44,873 nucleotides of DNA from Gemmatimonadota bacterium (GTDB lineage: Bacteria; Gemmatimonadota; Gemmatimonadetes; Longimicrobiales; Gaopeijiaceae): contig SKNW01000002.1 in NCBI GenBank assembly GCA_007120305.1, forward strand, positions 1 through 44,873. Direction: 5' to 3'. A program made the translations under genes and the position numbers. The notes under the pieces were generated by a model. The model had not been told where the DNA came from, did no database searches, and saw only the letters and a program-made list of their open reading frames with translations. This document shows, in pieces, positions 2,155 to 34,223 of this stretch (within the stretch, counting starts at the first letter, position 1; each line of letters begins with the position of its first letter).

Positions 2155-3219
2155 TCAGGCCTCCCGGGTCAGCGACCCCTCCCGCTTCGACCGCAGCTGC
2201 GCCAGGTCCACCCCCTGCACGTACTCCACCACGGCGCGCACGACCTCGGGGTCGGTGTCGGGATGGAGCCCGTGACCCACGTTGAAGATGTGACCCGGCC
2301 GCCCGCCCACTGCCTCGATGACCTCCGCCGCCCGGGCCAGCGCCGTCTCCTTCCCCGCCAGGAGCGCCACCGGGTCCATGTTCCCCTGCACCCCCCGGTC
2401 GTGCCCCACGATCTTCCAGGCCTCGTCGATCTTCACCCGCCAGTCCAGCCCGATGACGTCACCCCCCCCTTCGGCCAGCATGGGGAGGAGTGCCGGGTTG
2501 CCGGTGGCGAAGTTGATGGTGGGGATCCCCGCCTCGCCCAGTCCGTCCAGGATCCGCTTCGTGTAGGGGAGCACCGAACGACGGTAGTCGTCGGGGTGCA
2601 GGGACCCGGCCCACGAATCGAAGATCTGGATGCACGCCGCCCCCGCCTCCACCTGCGCCTTCCCGAAGGCAATGAGGTGCTCGCTCCAGTAGGACATGAG
2701 CTCGTCCCAGAGCCCGGCCTCCTTCCACATGAACGCCTTGGTGCCCGTGCGCTCCCGGGTGCGGGGGGACTCCACCATGTACGTCATGAGGGTGAAGGGG
2801 GCCCCGATGAAGCCCAGCACCGGCACATCCAGCTCCTCCTTCAGGATCTGGAGCGTCCGCATCACGAAGTCCAGCCGGTCGCGGGGGTCGAAGGGCTTGA
2901 GGGACCGGATCGTCTCGGCCGAGTTGTAGGGGTGGGGGAGCACCGGCCCCAGCCCCTTCTCGATGCGCACGTCGATGCCCGCGCCCAGGAAGATTGTCGC
3001 GATGTCGGCGTAGAGCACCGCCCCGTCCACCGGAAAATACTCCAGCGGCAGCTTCGTGATGTCCGCCGCCAGTCGCGGGTTCCGGGTCACCGCCAGCAGG
3101 TCCTGGTCCCCCTTCAGATCGTGGTAGCGGGGGAGGGAGCGCCCGGCCTGACGCATGAACCAGACGGGGGTGCGGTCGAGGGGCTCGCGGCGCAGCGCAC
3201 GGAGGAGGCGGTCGTTCAT
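2155..3219 (-). CDS. hemE: uroporphyrinogen decarboxylase
   Basis: A 354-residue cytosolic enzyme that decarboxylates the four acetate side chains of uroporphyrinogen III to give coproporphyrinogen III in haem synthesis. Visible signatures are RTPVWFMRQAGRSLPRY at the N-terminus (the RQAGR substrate-binding loop), LYADIATIFLGAG with the catalytic Asp, GFIGAPFTLMTYM, IFDSWAGSL, and the C-terminal GHIFNVGHGLHPDTDPEVV. The ATG at 3219 gives the usual family length and N-terminus; an in-frame upstream extension has no family residues. No clear Shine-Dalgarno is seen before it. The nearest neighbours are not haem genes, so it may be transcribed alone. Confidence 0.97.
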   Translation of the reverse strand: MNDRLLRALRREPLDRTPVWFMRQAGRSLPRYHDLKGDQDLLAVTRNPRLAADITKLPLEYFPVDGAVLYADIATIFLGAGIDVRIEKGLGPVLPHPYNSAETIRSLKPFDPRDRLDFVMRTLQILKEELDVPVLGFIGAPFTLMTYMVESPRTRERTGTKAFMWKEAGLWDELMSYWSEHLIAFGKAQVEAGAACIQIFDSWAGSLHPDDYRRSVLPYTKRILDGLGEAGIPTINFATGNPALLPMLAEGGGDVIGLDWRVKIDEAWKIVGHDRGVQGNMDPVALLAGKETALARAAEVIEAVGGRPGHIFNVGHGLHPDTDPEVVRAVVEYVQGVDLAQLRSKREGSLTREA

Positions 3220-3451
3220 GGCGGGTCTGGGTGGGGTTGGGAGGGTGGGGTGTGGGGAGATGCGACGTCGACCGGCGAAGCGAGCCGTCGAATTTTCGGC
3301 CCGGAATCTATCACCCGACGCGCGGACAGGCACGGTGGTGCGGGGGAGGCGCCGCAAAGGTGCCCGGACCCCGGGCCCCACGGAACCGGCTCGGAAAGCG
3401 GGACGTGGCAGCCAGGCTGCGGGTCACCACCGGGTCACACGGCCCCCTGCA

Positions 3452-26485: not shown

Positions 26486-27313
26486 TCAGAAGTTCTTCCG
26501 GCCGAAGCTCCGCATCCCCAGCGCAAAGGGGACCGCGAGCCAGGCCAGGAGGGCGCCCATCGCCGTCAGGCGCCCCCCGGTGCCGCCGAAGAAGTCCCGG
26601 AAGAGCGCTCCGGTGAAGCCCATGAGCGCCGAGATGTCGAACTCGAGGAGGAGGAGGATCCGGGCCAGGTCCACCGGGTTCAGCATGGAGAGCGCGATGA
26701 CGGGGCGCTCCAGGGGAAAGTCCCCCAGGAGATAGATGGCCATGAGGATCACGGCATCGTAGACCACGGCGAAGGCGATCCACGCGCCCAGGCAGAGTCC
26801 GAGCCCCCGGATGCGGTCCTCGGTGGCCACCGCCACCAGGAAGGAGAGGGCGAGGAAGACCAGGGTCAGGGCCACGCCCGTGCCCAGCAGGAAGGCCAGC
26901 GGCACCCACCCCCCGCCTGCCCCACCCCCGTGGGCCAGGTAGGGGAGCGCCGTCCCCAGGACGAAGGCCACGGCCATGGGGACCGAGAGCCCGGCAAAGA
27001 GCCCCAGGAAGAGGCTGCGCCGCCGCACCGGGTGGGCCAGGAGCATCTCGGTGAACTCCCGGGATGCGTACATGTACATGGCGCCCAGCACGATGCTCAC
27101 CAGCGGGATCCCGATGAGCACGACGTTCAGAAGGCTCAGGATGACCCGCTCGCCCGAGCCGCCAAACCGGAAGAGGAGGTCGGTGAGGAGGACGAAGAAG
27201 AGCCCGTAGAGGAGGATCCACCGGCTCCGAAGCACGTCGCGAAGCTGGTAGCGGGTGATCTTGAGCGTGTCGGACCCGCCCTGGCGGCCGGATCCGGAAG
27301 TCAGCGCGTTCAT
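26486..27313 (-). CDS. nosY: NosY-type ABC transporter permease
   Basis: A 275-residue inner-membrane protein with about six hydrophobic helices (for example WILLYGLFFVLLTDLLF, GIPLVSIVLGAMYM, LTLVFLALSFLVAVA, FAVVYDAVILMAIYLLG). NosY pairs with the ATPase NosF and periplasmic NosD to form NosDFY, which supports assembly of the Cu-S centre of nitrous oxide reductase. Motifs shared with NosY are REFTEMLLAHPVRRRSLFLG and SMLNPVDLARI. The start overlaps the nosF stop by 4 nt (ATGA). It is the last gene of the operon. Confidence 0.92.
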   Translation of the reverse strand: MNALTSGSGRQGGSDTLKITRYQLRDVLRSRWILLYGLFFVLLTDLLFRFGGSGERVILSLLNVVLIGIPLVSIVLGAMYMYASREFTEMLLAHPVRRRSLFLGLFAGLSVPMAVAFVLGTALPYLAHGGGAGGGWVPLAFLLGTGVALTLVFLALSFLVAVATEDRIRGLGLCLGAWIAFAVVYDAVILMAIYLLGDFPLERPVIALSMLNPVDLARILLLLEFDISALMGFTGALFRDFFGGTGGRLTAMGALLAWLAVPFALGMRSFGRKNF

Positions 27314-28080
27314 GCCACGACCCTCGCGGTGATGCGGCGGGCGATGGCCCGCTCCAGGGAAGCCTCGCCGGTGGAGCCCATGAGGCTCTCCACCGACTCG
27401 CGAAAGTGGATCCGGCCGTCCAGAAGGTAGACCACGGTGTCGGCCAGCTCCTGCACCTCGGCCATGACGTGAGAGGTCAGAACCAGCGTCCGGCCCTCGG
27501 CCCGCTCCCGGAGGAGCCGATCCTTGAGGACGCTGCTCGAGACGGGATCGAGACCGGCGGTGGGCTCGTCCAGGAAGAGGATCTCCGGCCGGAAGCGCAG
27601 GGCCAGCACGGCGCTCACCTTCTGGCGATTCCCCCCCGACAGGGTCCGGAACGGCTTGTCCAGCTCGGCCTCGAGGCGAAGCTCGTCCACCAGGCTCTCG
27701 TCAGTGCCGGGCGGGTTGCCCCGAAGGTCCGAGACCATGGCCAGGATCTCCCGCGCCGTGAGGTTTTCGGGATACCGCGCGATCTGGGGCATGTAGCCGA
27801 TCCGGCGCCGGTACTCCGGCGACCCGTCCAGGCGCTCCCCCGCCACCGTGATCGTCCCCCCGTCGGGGATCACGAGCCCCAGAATGCTCTTGATCAGCGT
27901 GGTCTTTCCGGCGCCGTTTGGCCCCAGGATCGCCGTGGTCCGACCGGTCTCGAGGTCCAGGTCCAGGTCGTCCAGCACCCGGAGCCTCCCGAAGCGCTTC
28001 GAGAGCTTCTGGACGCGAATGATCGGGGTCGCCGGGACGGGTCCGGCCGGGGGAGCGGGGGCGTTCGTCGATGCGGTCAT
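27310..28080 (-). CDS. nosF: NosF-type ABC transporter ATPase
   Basis: A 256-residue ATPase. It has Walker A (GPNGAGKTT), a Q-loop (IGYMPQIARYPENLTAREIL), the signature LSGGNRQK, Walker B (ILFLDEPTAGLDP) and the H-loop (LTSHVM). It drives the NosDFY complex for copper-site maturation of NosZ. The start at 28080 overlaps the nosD stop (28077-28079), and its stop overlaps the nosY start, giving tight translational coupling. Its first 20 residues are an extra Pro/Ala-rich segment (TNAPAPPAGPVPATP) before the usual start of the ATPase fold. Confidence 0.95.
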   Translation of the reverse strand: MTASTNAPAPPAGPVPATPIIRVQKLSKRFGRLRVLDDLDLDLETGRTTAILGPNGAGKTTLIKSILGLVIPDGGTITVAGERLDGSPEYRRRIGYMPQIARYPENLTAREILAMVSDLRGNPPGTDESLVDELRLEAELDKPFRTLSGGNRQKVSAVLALRFRPEILFLDEPTAGLDPVSSSVLKDRLLRERAEGRTLVLTSHVMAEVQELADTVVYLLDGRIHFRESVESLMGSTGEASLERAIARRITARVVA

Positions 28081-29534
28081 GGCTGCACCTCGCGCATGCG
28101 GGGTTCGGGATCCACCAGCGCCTCGGGGGTCAGCACGGGGAGCACCCGCTCTGCCACCTCGAGCACGTCGACGAAGAAGCTGCGGAGAAGAATCAGCGCC
28201 GCCGGCTTCCCCTCGACGATGTACGAGAAGAGGCGGACGGGCCGGTGGGGAACGTCGCCGAAGCCATCGCCCGAGAGGTCGTAGCCCCGGTAGGCGCTCC
28301 AGTAGTTCCGCTCGAAGGTGTTGTCGCTCCGGCGGGCGTTGGTGGTCACATCGAAGGTGTTGTCGATGAAATCGTTCGCGGTGAAGTGGTTGTCCTGGCT
28401 GCTCCCCAGGATGCGCACCGCCCAGCCGTTTCGCTCCACCCGGTTGAGGCGGAAGGTCACCCGGTCCGCCCCCTCGACGAAGAGCGCCACCGAGTTTCGG
28501 CGGAAGAGGTTCCCCTCCACGAGGGAGTCCTGCACGTCCTTGAGGAGGAGCCCGTAGACCGCCGGGCCCCAGTTGTCCTCGAAGCGGTTCCCGGACATGA
28601 CCACGTTCCGGGTGTACATGACGGCCACGCCGGCCCCGTTCTTCCGGAAGACGTTGTCCTGGTAGAAGGAGTCGTCGGAGAACATGAAGTGGAGCCCGTA
28701 GCGGAGGTTCTCCTCGCTCGTGTTGCCGCGGATGATGACCCCGCGCGCGAACTCCAGGTAGATCCCGTCGCGGTGCCCCGCGATCCGGTTGTCCACCACC
28801 TGCACGCGCTCCACATCCCAGAGGTGGATCCCGTTTCCGGAATCCGCCTCCCGGGTGGCGTCGGAGCGCACCCGGTTCCCGCGGACCTCGCATTCCCGGG
28901 AGCGGGCCAGGTAGATGCCGAAGAAGTTGTCCTCGAGGCGGTTGTTCAGGATCCGGCAGGCCACGTGCTCTTCCACCTTGATGGCGGCGTGGTCCTGGGT
29001 GTAGCTCTTTCCGGCGCCCCGGAGCTCGAAGCCCTCCACGTGGACCGAGTCGGCGTCCACGAGGAGGATGGAGTGGGTCTCCTCCCCGTCCAGCACGGGC
29101 CATCCCTCGCCCACCAGGGTCAGGGGCCGGTCAATCGAGAGGGGAAACTCCCGGTACGTGCCCGGGGCCACCCGGATCACGGCATGGGGGGATGCGGCCT
29201 CCACCGCCTCGCGCAGGCTCCGGTAGTCCCCGGCCGGGCCGACCCGGATCTCCTGCCGGACCTGCTCCCGCGGCTCCTGCCCGATCTCCGGTCGCGCCTC
29301 GCGCCCGGCCTCCTCCCCGCGCCGGGTCTCCTCCCCGGGCCCGGCCGCCGACGAGGATGCCGGCGCGGATACTGGCGCGGATACTGGCGCGGAGGCCGGC
29401 ACGGATGCCGGAACTGCACCCCCTCGGGCCCACTCCGGGAGATCGTCGCTCCCGGGCGAGGTCACGGCCAGGAAGAGCACCCCCAGCGTCACGACGCCGG
29501 CGAGGACGGCGGGCCCGCGGGCGTCAGTGGCCAT
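28077..29534 (-). CDS. nosD: NosD periplasmic copper-site maturation protein
   Basis: A 485-residue protein. An N-terminal hydrophobic helix (about 8-25) serves as signal or anchor. Residues about 42-60 are a Pro/Ala/Ser/Val repeat encoded by 12-bp tandem units, then a charged linker up to about 95. The rest is a parallel beta-helix (CASH repeats: IRVGPAGDYRSLREAVEAA, CRILNNRLEDNFFGIYL, VVDNRIAGHRDGIYLE, MSGNRFEDNWGPAVYG), ending with the NosD-typical SDNTFERNYWSAYRGYDLSGDGFGD. NosD works with NosF and NosY in delivering sulfur/copper to the NosZ active site. The start overlaps the nosL stop by 11 nt. Confidence 0.94.
   Translation of the reverse strand: MATDARGPAVLAGVVTLGVLFLAVTSPGSDDLPEWARGGAVPASVPASAPVSAPVSAPASSSAAGPGEETRRGEEAGREARPEIGQEPREQVRQEIRVGPAGDYRSLREAVEAASPHAVIRVAPGTYREFPLSIDRPLTLVGEGWPVLDGEETHSILLVDADSVHVEGFELRGAGKSYTQDHAAIKVEEHVACRILNNRLEDNFFGIYLARSRECEVRGNRVRSDATREADSGNGIHLWDVERVQVVDNRIAGHRDGIYLEFARGVIIRGNTSEENLRYGLHFMFSDDSFYQDNVFRKNGAGVAVMYTRNVVMSGNRFEDNWGPAVYGLLLKDVQDSLVEGNLFRRNSVALFVEGADRVTFRLNRVERNGWAVRILGSSQDNHFTANDFIDNTFDVTTNARRSDNTFERNYWSAYRGYDLSGDGFGDVPHRPVRLFSYIVEGKPAALILLRSFFVDVLEVAERVLPVLTPEALVDPEPRMREVQP
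29362..29409 (-). repeat. 12-bp in-frame tandem repeat in nosD
   Basis: Four units of GGCGCGGATACT-like sequence (29362-29373, 29374-29385, 29386-29397, 29398-29409), the first two identical. On the coding strand they encode a VSAP/ASVP-type linker just after the NosD membrane helix. Confidence 0.75.
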
Positions 29535-30288
29535 GGCTGTTCCTTGCCCCGTCCGTATCCCCGCCCATGTCCCGGCTCATGCCCCCGCCTGTGCCCCCGC
29601 CTGTGCCCCCGTCGGTCGGCCCGCCCATGCCGCTCCCCATCCCTCGCCCCTGGCCCCGGACCGGTGTCCCGGCCACGAGCGCCTGGATCCCGGCCCAGTC
29701 CAGCACCTCTCCCCCGTGTGCGCCCTGCTGGGCTCGTGCAGCCGGTGCCCCGGCGTAGGCCGACAGGCCCAGCCCCATGGGGCTTCGGAGTCCGTCGCTA
29801 CGGAGGTAGGTGGCCCGGGTCGCATCCAGCCAGCTTCCGGGGGCCTCGAAATCGGTGACCCACCACCCGGCGATCCGGTCCTCCGGGACCTCCGCCGCCT
29901 GCTGGGTCCACTCCACCAGGCACTCGATGGAGTCGAAGACCCACACCCGGCCCCGGTCGTTCAGCAGCTGCGCGGCGAACCGCTCTTCGGAGATCCGCAT
30001 CCTGCAGTGGGCGCACTCCTCCTCACCGATGCGAATCGCCCGGGGACCGGCCGGTCCACACCCGGCGAGAGGCGCAAGCGCCAGGGCGAAGGAGGCCGTG
30101 ACCATGAGCCGCACCACCTCGCGGCGGCTGCGGACGGGCTCCTCCTGACCGCGGATCCATGGCCCCGAGGTCCATGGCCCCGAGGTCGAGGGCCCCGAGG
30201 TCGAGGGCCCGGAGGTCGAGGGCCCGGAGGTCGAGGGCCCGGGAAGCGATGGCTTTGCAGGCGATGACCTGGGGGTGGCAGGGCTCAT
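29524..30288 (-). CDS. nosL: NosL copper-chaperone lipoprotein with repeat-rich termini
   Basis: A 254-residue protein. The core has the NosL copper-site motif EECAHCRM (Cys92, Cys95, Met97), then FDSIECLVEW (Cys123) and DATRATYLRS. The signal region has a Tat-like RSRREVVRL and lipobox LAPLAGC (Cys77). Ahead of it are about 57 residues, including (GPSTS)n repeats from a 15-bp tandem array. The start at 30288 is chosen because GGAG lies 8 nt upstream; an ATG at 30105 would remove the repeats but leaves a signal without positive charge. The C-terminus is Gly/Met/Asp-rich, also repetitive, and ends HGH, possibly extra copper binding. NosL delivers Cu(I) to NosZ. Confidence 0.9.
   Translation of the reverse strand: MSPATPRSSPAKPSLPGPSTSGPSTSGPSTSGPSTSGPWTSGPWIRGQEEPVRSRREVVRLMVTASFALALAPLAGCGPAGPRAIRIGEEECAHCRMRISEERFAAQLLNDRGRVWVFDSIECLVEWTQQAAEVPEDRIAGWWVTDFEAPGSWLDATRATYLRSDGLRSPMGLGLSAYAGAPAARAQQGAHGGEVLDWAGIQALVAGTPVRGQGRGMGSGMGGPTDGGTGGGTGGGMSRDMGGDTDGARNSHGH
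29579..29638 (-). repeat. 12-bp degenerate tandem repeat in the nosL 3' end
   Basis: About five units related to GTGCCCCCGCCT run from 29579 to 29638 and encode the GGxGGG/GMGG-type tail of NosL. The second unit differs from the first by one base; later units are more degenerate. Confidence 0.6.
30156..30245 (-). repeat. 15-bp tandem repeat in the nosL 5' end
   Basis: Six near-identical 15-bp units, starting at 30156, 30171, 30186, 30201, 30216 and 30231 (TCGAGGGCCCGGAGG type). They encode GPSTS/GPWTS repeats before the NosL signal sequence. The period keeps the reading frame. Confidence 0.9.
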
Positions 30289-30348: not shown

Positions 30349-31551
30349 TCAGCGGGGGGCCGTGTACGGGGCGGGTGGGCCGGGGGGAGTGGGAAGCCCC
30401 CATCCCTCGGCCACCACCCTCAGTGCCTGGTCCCAGTTCATGAGCCGACCGGAGTAGGCCTCCTGGAGGTTCACCGCCATCCGGTCGGTTTCGATGGCCA
30501 GGAGGGCAGGCCCGTCGGGACCCGCCGGGGCCTTTCGGTTGGGCGAGAGAAGAAAGTGGGCCGAGGCGGCATCCACGAGCTTCTCGCCCTGGGCGAAGTC
30601 CACGACCCGGACCCGGTCCACCTGGGCGGCCGGCGTGGCGCCGGAAAGGAGGTGCCCCGCCAGGCAGGCGGCCGAGGCGAAGGCCAGCGTCTCGCCCCCG
30701 GTCGTCTCGATCACCCCGCCCCAGCGGATTTCCTGGATCGGTACATGGCAGTAGGGATCGAGGTGGCCGTTGAACACCATGCGGTCGGCGTCGCTCCCGG
30801 GCGGCTGGACCGGGGCCCGCTGCAGCGCCGAGGCGGCCGAAGCGGTCATGCCGGCGTCCTCGCCCCCCGGGGTCCCGACGCGGTCGCATCCTCCGAGAAG
30901 GGTGGCGGCGCTTGCCCCCAGGGTCAGCATCACCAGGGGGGCCACCCGTGTCCGTCCGCCCTCGGCCGCGGCTTCGCGCCCGCGGAAGGCCCGGACCACG
31001 GCCCATGTTGCCATCAGCACCGATGCCATGATGAAGAAGGTGCCGAGCCCCGGCCACGACGAGGCACGAATGTTCAGGAGCTGCGCCGTCCCGATGATGG
31101 GCGGCGAGTAGGTCATGTCCGGGATGCGGATGGGGGCATCGGGGCTCAGGTTGTGCCCGTAGTCGATGTTCCAGAGGTAGAAGTCCACCATGCCGGTCAC
31201 CCCGGCGGCCACGAAGAGCACGAGCCACCCTGCCATCACCCGGGGCCGCCCCAGCGCCCCCGCCATGACCCCGGTCACGATGAGTCCCGCCAGGACCCAG
31301 GGCATGATCTCCAGCTCGGGGATGTTCTCGGGCTCGATGGCCTGCATGCCGATGTAGTGGTTCAGGATGTTGATGTTCTGGATGTCGTGCCGGTCGTGGC
31401 CGCGCACGTCGTTCACGTAGATGTGCATCCCCAGCCCATCCGGGTACTGGGGCGCCACGAGCCCGATGCTCCAGAGCGGCGTGATGAACGCCGGGAGCAG
31501 GAGGAGCGCGGCGAGCACCAGCACGAGGCGGCTCGTTCGGTCAGCGCGCAT
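30349..31551 (-). CDS. NosB-like membrane protein fused to a NosL-like domain
   Basis: A 400-residue protein in the place where clade II nos operons carry a membrane protein (NosB) after nosZ. Residues 1-190 have about four membrane helices (about 8-30, 83-100, 105-127, 167-187) and a His-rich loop (NDVRGHDRHDIQNINILNHY). Residues 203-222 look like a second signal sequence ending LLGGC (Cys222). Residues about 258-385 resemble NosL: DPYCHVPI (Cys268) for the CxxCxM site, with its first Cys replaced by Asp265; ACLAGHLL (Cys296); AHFLLSPNRKAP; and MNWDQALRVVAEG. The frame is open throughout; an internal GTG at 30945 could start a separate lipoprotein. Probable role: copper handling and NosZ activation. 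Confidence 0.82.
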   Translation of the reverse strand: MRADRTSRLVLVLAALLLLPAFITPLWSIGLVAPQYPDGLGMHIYVNDVRGHDRHDIQNINILNHYIGMQAIEPENIPELEIMPWVLAGLIVTGVMAGALGRPRVMAGWLVLFVAAGVTGMVDFYLWNIDYGHNLSPDAPIRIPDMTYSPPIIGTAQLLNIRASSWPGLGTFFIMASVLMATWAVVRAFRGREAAAEGGRTRVAPLVMLTLGASAATLLGGCDRVGTPGGEDAGMTASAASALQRAPVQPPGSDADRMVFNGHLDPYCHVPIQEIRWGGVIETTGGETLAFASAACLAGHLLSGATPAAQVDRVRVVDFAQGEKLVDAASAHFLLSPNRKAPAGPDGPALLAIETDRMAVNLQEAYSGRLMNWDQALRVVAEGWGLPTPPGPPAPYTAPR

Positions 31552-31650: not shown

Positions 31651-33630
31651 TCAGTTCGAAGAACCGCGGGTTCCGGTCCGCCAGGAGATCGGAACGCCCG
31701 AGCCCGGGGCCGACACCCGCACGTAGCCCTGCATCTCCTGGTGGAGCGCCGAGCAGAAGGCGGTGCAGTAGAAGGGATAGATCCCGGTGCGCGTCGGGAC
31801 CCACTTCAGGGTCTTGGTCTGCCCCGGCACGAGGATGATCTCGGCGTTCGTGGCGCCCTTGATGGCGATCCCGTGGGTCACATCCCAGTCCTGCTCCAGG
31901 TTCGTCACGTGGAAGTAGACGGTGTCGCCTACCTCGACCCCCTCGATGTTGTCCGGGGTGAAGTGGCTCCGGATGCTGGTCATGTAGACCCGGACCACGT
32001 TCCCCTCCCGCTCCACCCGGGCATCGCCGGGACGGCGCGTGACCTGGGGATGCTGGTTCTCGGAGAGTTCGTAGATCCGCCGCGCGTTTCCGGAGATCAG
32101 GTCCGCCCGGATTCCCTGGGCGTAGTGGGGCTCGCCGATGGTGGGGAAGTCCTTGAGCAGAACCATGCGGTCACCCGAAACGTCGTAGAGCTGGGCCGGG
32201 TGGTTCTGCTTCGGCCCCACCGGGAGGAAACGGTCCCGGGCGGTCTTGGTGAGACCAATCAGATACCTGGGCTGCGGGTCACGGGTGTCGCCGTGGGTCA
32301 GCATGAGATGCCCGATGGAGTAGTAGGCGTCGATCCGGTCCACCACCTCGAAGGTCTCGAGCGACCACTTCACGATCTCGGACGAGATGTAGACCGAGGT
32401 GTAGGCGTAGCCGCGACCATCGAACTCGGTGTGGAGCGGCCCGAGGCCGGGGTTCTGGACCTCGCCGATGATGGTGGCGTCGTAGTCCAGCACCGGGATC
32501 CCCATGATCGTCTCCACGATGGCCCCGTCGGAGATGGCCTGCTGCATGCGCGAGAAGGAGTGGACCGGGATCACGGTGGCGAGCTTGCCTCCCGCCACGA
32601 TGTATTCGCCGGTGGGGTCGATGTCGACGCCGTGGGGGGACTTCGGCGTCGGGAGGAAGTACATGGCGCCCTGGAGTTCCGAGGGCTGCAGAAGGCGTAC
32701 CCCCTGCTTCTCTTCGGAGACGGCGGTGCCAACCCCCGGGTCGTAGCGGTTGTGGAAGTAGGTTCCCGGCACGTCGCGGCCGGCGCCGTTCGCCGCGGCT
32801 TCGGCGGCCCGCCGCCAGTTCACGGCCAGGATGAAGTCCTTGTCGTTTCGCGATGCCTCGATCTCGAGCAGGGTGTGGGCCTGCTCGGTGTTGTACGAGG
32901 TGAAGAAGACCCAGTCCCCGGAGACGCCCATCCCCGAACGGGCCAGGTCGTAGTGGTAGGGGGGAACCTGCACCTGGAAGTCCAGCTCCATCTCGCCTGA
33001 CTCCGGGTCGACCCGGATGAAGGTCAGGGCGCCATCGAAGTTTTCCCGGTAGGAGTCGATGGGGACGTCCAGGTCCTGCTCCACAGGAATCGAGAATCGG
33101 GTTGCGCCAAAGACGTACTCGGTGTTCTCGGTCACGAACGACGAGGCATGGTTTCCGCCCGTGTTCGGGAGTTCCAGGATCTCCACGGTCTCGAACTTGG
33201 TCAGGTCGATGCGGGCGATCCGGGGGGTGTTGTTCCCGTTGATGAAGATCCACCGGCCGTCGGCCGTCCCGTTCGTTCGGGAGAGGACCGGGTGGTGGGA
33301 GTCGTCCCAGGGGATGAAGCCGTAGCTCGTCTGGAGCATTCCCTTCGACTCCTCGGAGTAGCCGTACCCCGACTCGGGGTCCTGGCTGAAGACCGGGATC
33401 ACCCGGAAGAGCCGGGCCGAGGGGAGGCCCCAGACCGAGAGCTGGCCGCTGTAGCCCCCGGAAAGGAAGGCGTAGAACTCGTCATGCTCGCCGGGGGCCA
33501 CGTAGACCCGCTCGGCGGCGTCACCGGCCGCGATCATGCCGTTCTCGCCGGCACAGCCTGCGAAGGCGACGCCCATTCCCGCCACCGCGAAGGTGGCGAG
33601 CGCGGCGTTCAACTTCCCGTTCAGTTTCAT
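31651..33630 (-). CDS. nosZ: nitrous oxide reductase, Sec-type (clade II)
   Basis: A 659-residue enzyme reducing N2O to N2. The N-terminus is a Sec-type signal with a lipobox-like VAFAGC (Cys26) and no twin arginine, as expected for clade II and unlike Tat-exported clade I. The beta-propeller carries CuZ histidines in WDDSHHP, GGNHASSF, SPHGVDID, LHTEFDGRG, IGHLML and EPHYAQ. The C-terminal cupredoxin domain has the CuA site CTAFCSALHQEMQGY (Cys622, Cys626, His630, Met633). The ribosome binding site is GGAGAGGG; the start overlaps the stop of the upstream cytochrome gene by 4 nt. If lipidated, the enzyme would be membrane-attached, close to its cytochrome c donor. Confidence 0.97.
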   Translation of the reverse strand: MKLNGKLNAALATFAVAGMGVAFAGCAGENGMIAAGDAAERVYVAPGEHDEFYAFLSGGYSGQLSVWGLPSARLFRVIPVFSQDPESGYGYSEESKGMLQTSYGFIPWDDSHHPVLSRTNGTADGRWIFINGNNTPRIARIDLTKFETVEILELPNTGGNHASSFVTENTEYVFGATRFSIPVEQDLDVPIDSYRENFDGALTFIRVDPESGEMELDFQVQVPPYHYDLARSGMGVSGDWVFFTSYNTEQAHTLLEIEASRNDKDFILAVNWRRAAEAAANGAGRDVPGTYFHNRYDPGVGTAVSEEKQGVRLLQPSELQGAMYFLPTPKSPHGVDIDPTGEYIVAGGKLATVIPVHSFSRMQQAISDGAIVETIMGIPVLDYDATIIGEVQNPGLGPLHTEFDGRGYAYTSVYISSEIVKWSLETFEVVDRIDAYYSIGHLMLTHGDTRDPQPRYLIGLTKTARDRFLPVGPKQNHPAQLYDVSGDRMVLLKDFPTIGEPHYAQGIRADLISGNARRIYELSENQHPQVTRRPGDARVEREGNVVRVYMTSIRSHFTPDNIEGVEVGDTVYFHVTNLEQDWDVTHGIAIKGATNAEIILVPGQTKTLKWVPTRTGIYPFYCTAFCSALHQEMQGYVRVSAPGSGVPISWRTGTRGSSN

Positions 33631-34223
33631 GGTTCCCTCTCCATCACGGTGCGGAGGTACTCGACGAGGGCACGCGCCTCGTCTTCGGAGATGTTCTGGT
33701 ACGGCATGACCAGCGGGTACTCGGCCAGGAGCTTCTGCCCCTCGGGATGCTCTCGGACCATCTGCTCCGGGTTCAGGATGAAGTTCATGACGAACGCCGC
33801 GGAGCGGTGTTCGAGGACGCGACCCAGCGGGGGGCCCACGAAGCGGTCCTCGAGCATGTGGCACGCCTCGCAGTTGTACTGGAAGAGCGTCTCGCCCCGG
33901 GTGGCCTTCTCCAGGTCGATGGTCCCCAGCTGCACCGGAGCCGTGATTGGACCCACCCCGTGCTCGAGTTCGAAGGCGGTGAAGGTGGGCCCGGAAGGGG
34001 CGTCGTCGCCCGCGGCCTGACCCGCGGGTCGGTCCTCGCCCCCGCATCCGGGCAGGGCAAAGGCCTGGACCAGGGCGAGGGTCAGGCCAAGGGCGAGGCT
34101 CGATCCGCGAGCCAGGCCGCTGGATCGACCGCTGGATCGACCGCTGGATCGGGCGCCGGATCGGGCGCCGGATCGGCCGCTGGTTCGGCCGCCGAAGCGG
34201 GGGGTGCGAATGCTTCCGTTCAT
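33627..34223 (-). CDS. cytochrome c lipoprotein, likely electron donor to NosZ
   Basis: A 198-residue protein, first in the nos operon. One haem site CEACH (118-122) and a likely distal Met in YPLVMPYQNIS (Met173) mark a class I cytochrome c, with ISEDEARALVEYLRTV as the closing helix. The signal sequence has a lipobox (FALPGC, Cys60). Before it lie about 38 residues rich in Arg, Ser and Gly (RSSG repeats) from a 12-bp tandem array. No ATG or GTG occurs between the repeats and the signal helix, so the start at 34223 (GAGG 8 nt upstream) seems right. The 4-nt overlap with nosZ and the role of similar cytochromes suggest it feeds electrons to CuA. Confidence 0.9.
   Translation of the reverse strand: MNGSIRTPRFGGRTSGRSGARSGARSSGRSSGRSSGLARGSSLALGLTLALVQAFALPGCGGEDRPAGQAAGDDAPSGPTFTAFELEHGVGPITAPVQLGTIDLEKATRGETLFQYNCEACHMLEDRFVGPPLGRVLEHRSAAFVMNFILNPEQMVREHPEGQKLLAEYPLVMPYQNISEDEARALVEYLRTVMEREP
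34117..34200 (-). repeat. 12-bp tandem repeat in the 5' end of the cytochrome c gene
   Basis: Seven 12-bp units from 34117 to 34200 (CCGCTGGATCGA, CCGCTGGATCGG, GCGCCGGATCGG types); the first two are identical, as are units four and five, and the last is degenerate. They encode an Arg/Ser/Gly repeat before the lipoprotein signal. Confidence 0.88.

Follow-up and report, generated by a model that had tools for sequence, protein, structure and literature searches.

The window, i.e. the whole stretch of 44,873 nucleotides that was analysed, contains a clade II nos cluster on the minus strand, with the genes in the order c-type cytochrome, nosZ, fused gene, nosL, nosD, nosF and nosY. The genes, and the features inside the fused gene, are listed here.

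33627-34223, minus strand: c-type cytochrome, upstream of nosZ
31651-33633, minus strand: nosZ, Sec-dependent (clade II) nitrous-oxide reductase (TIGR04246, 880 bits)
30349-31551, minus strand: fused gene of 400 amino acids, NosB plus internal lipoprotein signal plus diverged NosL (NosL-prime)
30967-31551, minus strand: NosB domain, residues 1-195, with four membrane helices and the motifs LNHYIGM and YGHN
30886-30990, minus strand: internal lipoprotein-type signal, with a positive n-region, a hydrophobic core (203-220) and the lipobox LLGGC up to Cys222
30886-30888, minus strand: codon of Cys222, predicted to be the lipidated +1 residue of NosL-prime
30760-30885, minus strand: long linker between Cys222 and the domain core, which lies 43 residues away
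30379-30783, minus strand: diverged NosL domain, residues ~257-391, without the copper-site residues
30748-30759, minus strand: DPYC (residues 265-268) in place of the CxxC of CxxCxM; the Met is Val270
30664-30666, minus strand: Cys296, the second invariant Cys, domain position 44
30523-30525, minus strand: Ala343, where canonical NosL has its second invariant Met, in the SPMG motif
29524-30288, minus strand: canonical nosL (CAHCRM, SPMG, terminal SHGH; Pfam NosL, 47.8 bits)
28077-29534, minus strand: nosD (Pfam/NCBIfam)
27310-27993 (start approximate), minus strand: nosF, ABC ATPase
26486-27313, minus strand: nosY, ABC-2 membrane subunit

The nos operon of the window has low-complexity protein ends, with tandem repeats in NosD and NosL. 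At the N-terminus of nosL (30161-30240, minus strand) a 15-bp repeat is present in 5.3 copies with a 95% match and encodes PSTSG-type pentapeptides ahead of the NosL signal; the equivalent nosL site of the nearest relative, L002 (approximately 3130-3230), has another pentapeptide repeat, MNGVP. Tandem repeats of 12-18 bp are also found near the N-terminus of NosD (29300-29411, minus strand) and in the C-terminal tail of NosL (29559-29658, minus strand). A twin-arginine-like SRRxVxRL precedes the lipobox of the canonical NosL in the window (30070-30140, minus strand) and in L002; other relatives differ here. The canonical NosL of the window genus may use the Tat route.

An earlier note, made from the letters of this DNA, had described 30349-31551 as coding for a NosB-like protein with four helices; the frame exists, on the minus strand, and the description holds. 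According to hydropathy, the membrane helices are located at approximately residues 5-33, 80-101, 104-126 and 167-183, and a fifth hydrophobic segment, at 203-220, ends in LLGGC. The stretches LNHYIGM and YGHN, given as recognition marks of NosB in the NosB passages of PMC9697520, are found at positions 63 and 131. Residues 1-195 have three characteristics of NosB, i.e. four membrane helices, a gene beside clade II nosZ and the LNHYIGM/YGHN motifs; no Pfam or NCBIfam model matches them. The positive charges are placed as expected for a NosB with both ends inside, followed by a signal that crosses from in to out. The AlphaFold model of the full-length protein is poor (pLDDT 58.6, pTM 0.41), so the weak Foldseek matches of its NosB part to TARP/claudin proteins are given no weight.

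The C-terminal domain is a true relative of NosL, beyond the match by eye on which the proposal of a second NosL-like domain in the same chain had been based. Pfam NosL gives 15.4 bits on the window protein alone, below the cut-off of 24 bits, and seven of the nine diverged members match it at E<=0.1. With an alignment of nine relatives, hhalign matches canonical NosL at 99.9% (E 6.5e-31, 127 columns). The AlphaFold model of the domain has a pLDDT of 64.7 and a pTM of 0.62; its top PDB matches in Foldseek are all NosL (7og7, 7znq, 7osf, 7osg, 7osj) with a probability of 1.00, and the significant matches (E-value 4.3e-5 for 7OG7, 2.4e-4 for 7ZNQ) are NosL structures only. The profile and structure comparison proposed in the earlier note thus agrees with NosL, and a different family for residues 258-385 is ruled out by the hhalign and Foldseek matches. 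The next gene, which had been read as a nosL, does encode a canonical one, the only NosL above the Pfam cut-off in the window genome.

Other genomes add what the earlier note could only propose to look for, since a search among relatives found both fused and split forms. A scan of an 84,980-species collection with peptides of the window protein gave six loci. Each is of the diverged type and comes from a Gemmatimonadota MAG. One of the six ends at a contig end within the linker, and four belong to MAGs with the prefix CSSed, which denotes sediment from Cock Soda Lake (PMC6704655). A NosB match was found in 133 of 395 Gemmatimonadota genomes, and the approximately 60 loci that we inspected closely show three main states: separate NosB and canonical NosL, NosB fused to a canonical NosL, and NosB fused to a diverged NosL. 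The genomes checked that have a canonical-type fusion contain no NosL besides the fused one. The diverged type was found in nine Gemmatimonadota genomes, from at least five genera and two families (coded taxonomy). It is monophyletic both in the NosB tree (99/88) and in the NosL tree (100/100), where its stem has a length of 1.03 changes per site. The earlier description of the fusion as recent does not fit: the state is common to nine genomes from five or more genera, and the stem of the diverged domain is long and has full support; furthermore, NosB-NosL fusion is recurrent in the phylum and had already been published.

A canonical NosL is encoded by the next gene in all seven diverged-type genomes with a continuing contig, and the other two contigs end there, i.e. 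the co-occurrence with an intact NosL is strict where the contigs allow it to be seen. In four genomes the stop codon of the fused gene and the start codon of the partner nosL overlap as ATGA. The partner NosLs form one clade (100/96, long rows left out). In the AU test, p is 0.449 for the diverged domain and the neighbour NosL as one clade, and 0.363 for the diverged domain with the other fused NosLs; neither grouping is rejected, and the diverged domain may or may not have arisen by duplication of the neighbouring NosL. The window type departs from the published fusions, in which the fused copy, with its copper site intact, would serve as the organism's sole NosL, as a canonical NosL is adjacent and the fused copy lacks the ligands. 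Among plasmid records, NosB was found in Bacteroidota, Deinococcus, Thermomicrobium and haloarchaea, and none of the records spans the whole query; in the two Bacteroidota plasmid records inspected, the NosB and NosL genes are separate. In one genome (G027) one fused gene spans two contigs, the end of L007/L040 and the start of L041, with 12 encoded residues in common at the break, and is probably continuous across it.

The internal lipoprotein-type signal ending in LLGGC, another claim of the earlier note, is present as segment 203-220 and Cys222. The charged n-region, the hydrophobic core and the lipobox Cys are all there, but internally, away from the N-terminus. We examined 25 fused proteins (16 canonical and 9 diverged), and all 25 have a hydrophobic segment between NosB and the NosL core, followed by a Cys that is preceded by Gly, Ala or Ser. 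A PROSITE-type lipoprotein pattern is found in 22 of the 25, compared with 26 of 32 separate NosLs; in the remainder of the fused proteins it hardly occurs. The distance from this Cys to the core is 12-15 residues in canonical fusions vs 11-19 in separate NosLs; in the diverged forms it is 25-51. The residue at +2 after the lipobox Cys (30883-30885, minus strand) is Asp in the window genus only, i.e. in the window and L002. In E. coli, Asp at +2 would hold a lipoprotein at the inner membrane.

On the NosB tree the label fused or separate changes at least eight times, so the kept lipobox is not a single inherited coincidence, and the presence of the lipobox Cys in every fusion argues for a separation of the two halves after synthesis. 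An internal translation start as the general explanation is ruled out for 17 of the 25 fusions, among them eight of the nine diverged ones, which have no in-frame ATG, GTG or TTG 14-40 codons before the lipobox Cys. The window gene has candidate internal starts, GTG at -19 and -15 and ATG at -14 from the Cys, and in the window species internal initiation could give a separate lipoprotein. The simplest reading of the sequences is that the lipobox Cys would be used, i.e. lipidated by Lgt and cut by LspA, and the predicted topology (N-terminus in, four helices, C-terminus in, outward signal) would allow this processing. Cleavage of the fused precursor appears fairly likely to us.

Alternatively, the fusion could stay intact, and the former signal would then be no more than a fifth helix in the membrane, holding the NosL-like domain beside NosB. 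This agrees with the single open frame in every case, with the plausible topology and with the long flexible linker of the diverged type. However, a plain anchor needs no Cys, and yet all 25 fusions retain the Cys and a small residue in front of it, in a linker that is otherwise hardly alignable (45% identity even between the window and L002). We consider an intact fusion unlikely. The lipobox residues could also have been kept because the Cys is lipidated but not cut, or because they are lost slowly. The suggestion that the domain is an attached partner of the NosZ machinery stands in that it is made in one chain with NosB; the attachment itself is doubtful, given a lipobox Cys that no fusion has lost.

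In the canonical NosLs of these loci, Cys13, Cys16, Met18, Asp40, Cys44 and Met92 (the numbers are columns of alignment A6) are each present in 48 of 48. The likely Cu(I) ligands of NosL are the Cys and the Met of the CxM motif, and one more Met is absolutely conserved (Bennett et al. 2019, PMC6530538). When 7OG7 and 7OSF are aligned, their CxxCxM and second Met fall in the same columns. The earlier note had observed correctly that the first Cys of CxxCxM is replaced by Asp, and we found that Met18, Asp40 and Met92 are lost as well. None of the nine diverged domains retains Cys13, Met18, Asp40 or Met92, and all nine have Asp13, Cys16 and Cys44. In place of the Cu(I) motif CxM (CxxCxM in clade II) all nine have DxxC and no Met, and the position of the second invariant Met (SPMG) is occupied by A, D, N, S or T. 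Each diverged domain has exactly two Cys, 28 residues apart, and across the nine there are new invariant residues, D13, R24, G26 and G27. All 7 partner NosLs have His in the C-terminal tail; the 8 diverged domains that are complete lack it there. Because the Cu(I) thioether and other residues of the site are lost, NosL-prime quite probably does not carry Cu(I).

The dN/dS of the diverged domain is 0.15 between the window and L002, 0.17 between L004 and L005 and 0.37-0.41 for distant pairs; these values are similar to those of NosB and the intact NosL, so the domain is maintained by purifying selection. No stop codons or frameshifts were found in the diverged domains of the nine genomes.

The diverged domain might still be metal-binding or redox-active in a changed role, which is compatible with cleavage. 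Asp13, Cys16 and Cys44 could hold Zn(II) or Cu(II), or the Cys pair could act on copper or on the thiols of NosZ. The evenly spaced pair and the invariant Asp in all nine domains, as well as the purifying selection, are consistent with such a role, and the fixed set of Asp, Cys and Cys would be better suited to Zn(II), or to a disulfide, than to Cu(I). However, both Cys are invariant in canonical NosL too, so their survival may be structural, and every thioether ligand is lost. A metal or redox role is, in our view, doubtful; some metal binding by NosL-prime is possible, with two invariant Cys remaining.

It is far less probable that the domain is a decaying NosL, a remnant from before a second nosL took over, kept only by its joining to NosB. 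The ligands were lost while another NosL was present and the stem branch is long (1.03 changes per site), but the dN/dS of 0.15-0.41 is near that of NosB and the intact NosL, new residues (D13, R24, G26, G27) have become invariant, and the domain is conserved over at least five genera with its frame intact. An assembly or frame error that joined two genes, conceivable as the source is a metagenome-assembled genome, is refuted by the same fusion in nine genomes, including a relative with 82-83% identity, and by fused forms in near-closed assemblies (G040, G096, G154).

From the observed anatomy, homology, ligand loss, selection and co-occurrence, we propose one precursor that would give NosB and NosL-prime, with copper carried by the neighbour NosL. 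The four helices of the NosB part would insert so that both termini lie in the cytoplasm, and the next hydrophobic stretch, a complete lipoprotein signal, would cross outward. Lgt would lipidate Cys222 and signal peptidase II (LspA) would cut before it, leaving the cut signal on NosB as a fifth helix and releasing NosL-prime as a membrane-anchored lipoprotein in an amount equal to NosB. The intact NosL from the next gene would deliver copper to NosZ. NosL-prime would keep the NosL fold for docking or adaptor work at NosB or NosDFY, and might hold a Zn(II)-type site of Asp/Cys/Cys or a disulfide. We lean slightly towards this explanation as a whole; its adaptor part, suggested by gene association, is more tentative and falls a little short of even. 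In its general form, the proposal is that NosB-NosL genes are bacterial polyprotein genes whose product signal peptidase II splits at an internal lipobox, that this arrangement was repeatedly reached or lost, and that in one clade the released lipoprotein is a non-copper-carrying NosL adaptor beside an intact NosL; for this we see the case as evenly balanced.

NosB of Wolinella succinogenes is required for N2O respiration, according to the sections on NosB in PMC9697520 and PMC11102522. It is essential to clade II N2O respiration in this organism, and one guess in the literature at its role is copper handling, since NosB can be fused to NosL. The diverged fusions are a natural experiment, in which NosB is joined to a NosL that lacks a copper site but is under selection, and copper carriage is left to a separate NosL; they distinguish a need of NosB for the copper of NosL from a need for the NosL fold. 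Should the internal lipobox be cut, this would be an unusual bacterial polyprotein processed by the lipoprotein peptidase, and the published NosB-L "fusion proteins" might be two proteins.

Compared with the canonical NosL chaperone (PMC6530538; 7OG7, 7ZNQ, 7OSF-J, 2HPU), NosL-prime has the common fold, full-length homology, a lipoprotein signal and a place in the nos operon. It differs by the absence of CxM and of the second Met, by Asp for the first Cys, by the lack of a His-rich tail and by a signal that is internal instead of N-terminal. The NosB of Wolinella succinogenes, as presented in the NosB passages of its literature, has four helices, LNHYIGM and YGHN and adjoins clade II nosZ, like the window NosB; it is a stand-alone protein, whereas the window NosB carries an added signal and domain.

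NosB-NosL fusions have been published for Dyadobacter fermentans and Flavobacterium (PMC9697520, citing van Spanning 2011 and Hein et al. 2017). As in the window gene, NosB and NosL are there in one frame directly after clade II nosZ, and the paragraphs of PMC9697520 on these fusions describe them as uniting the functions of NosB and NosL in one protein, with no mention of an internal lipobox. In the window type, by contrast with the fusions described in those paragraphs, the fused NosL is without copper ligands and its gene is followed by a second, intact nosL. A literature search that did not cover Hein 2017 found neither a fused NosL without copper site that accompanies an intact one, nor a universally kept lipobox in NosB-NosL, described anywhere, and a search for internal lipoboxes or signal peptidase II polyproteins found no publications. 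New are one Gemmatimonadota clade with a copper-site-less fused NosL and the lipobox Cys kept across all 25 fusions.

FbcH of Bradyrhizobium, the cytochrome b/c1 polyprotein, combines a multi-helix membrane protein and an exported protein in one chain, and its internal signal is cleaved. By analogy, it may serve as a precedent for a processed membrane-protein precursor. FbcH is cut by signal peptidase I, whereas the window protein carries a signal peptidase II box, at which cleavage is predicted.
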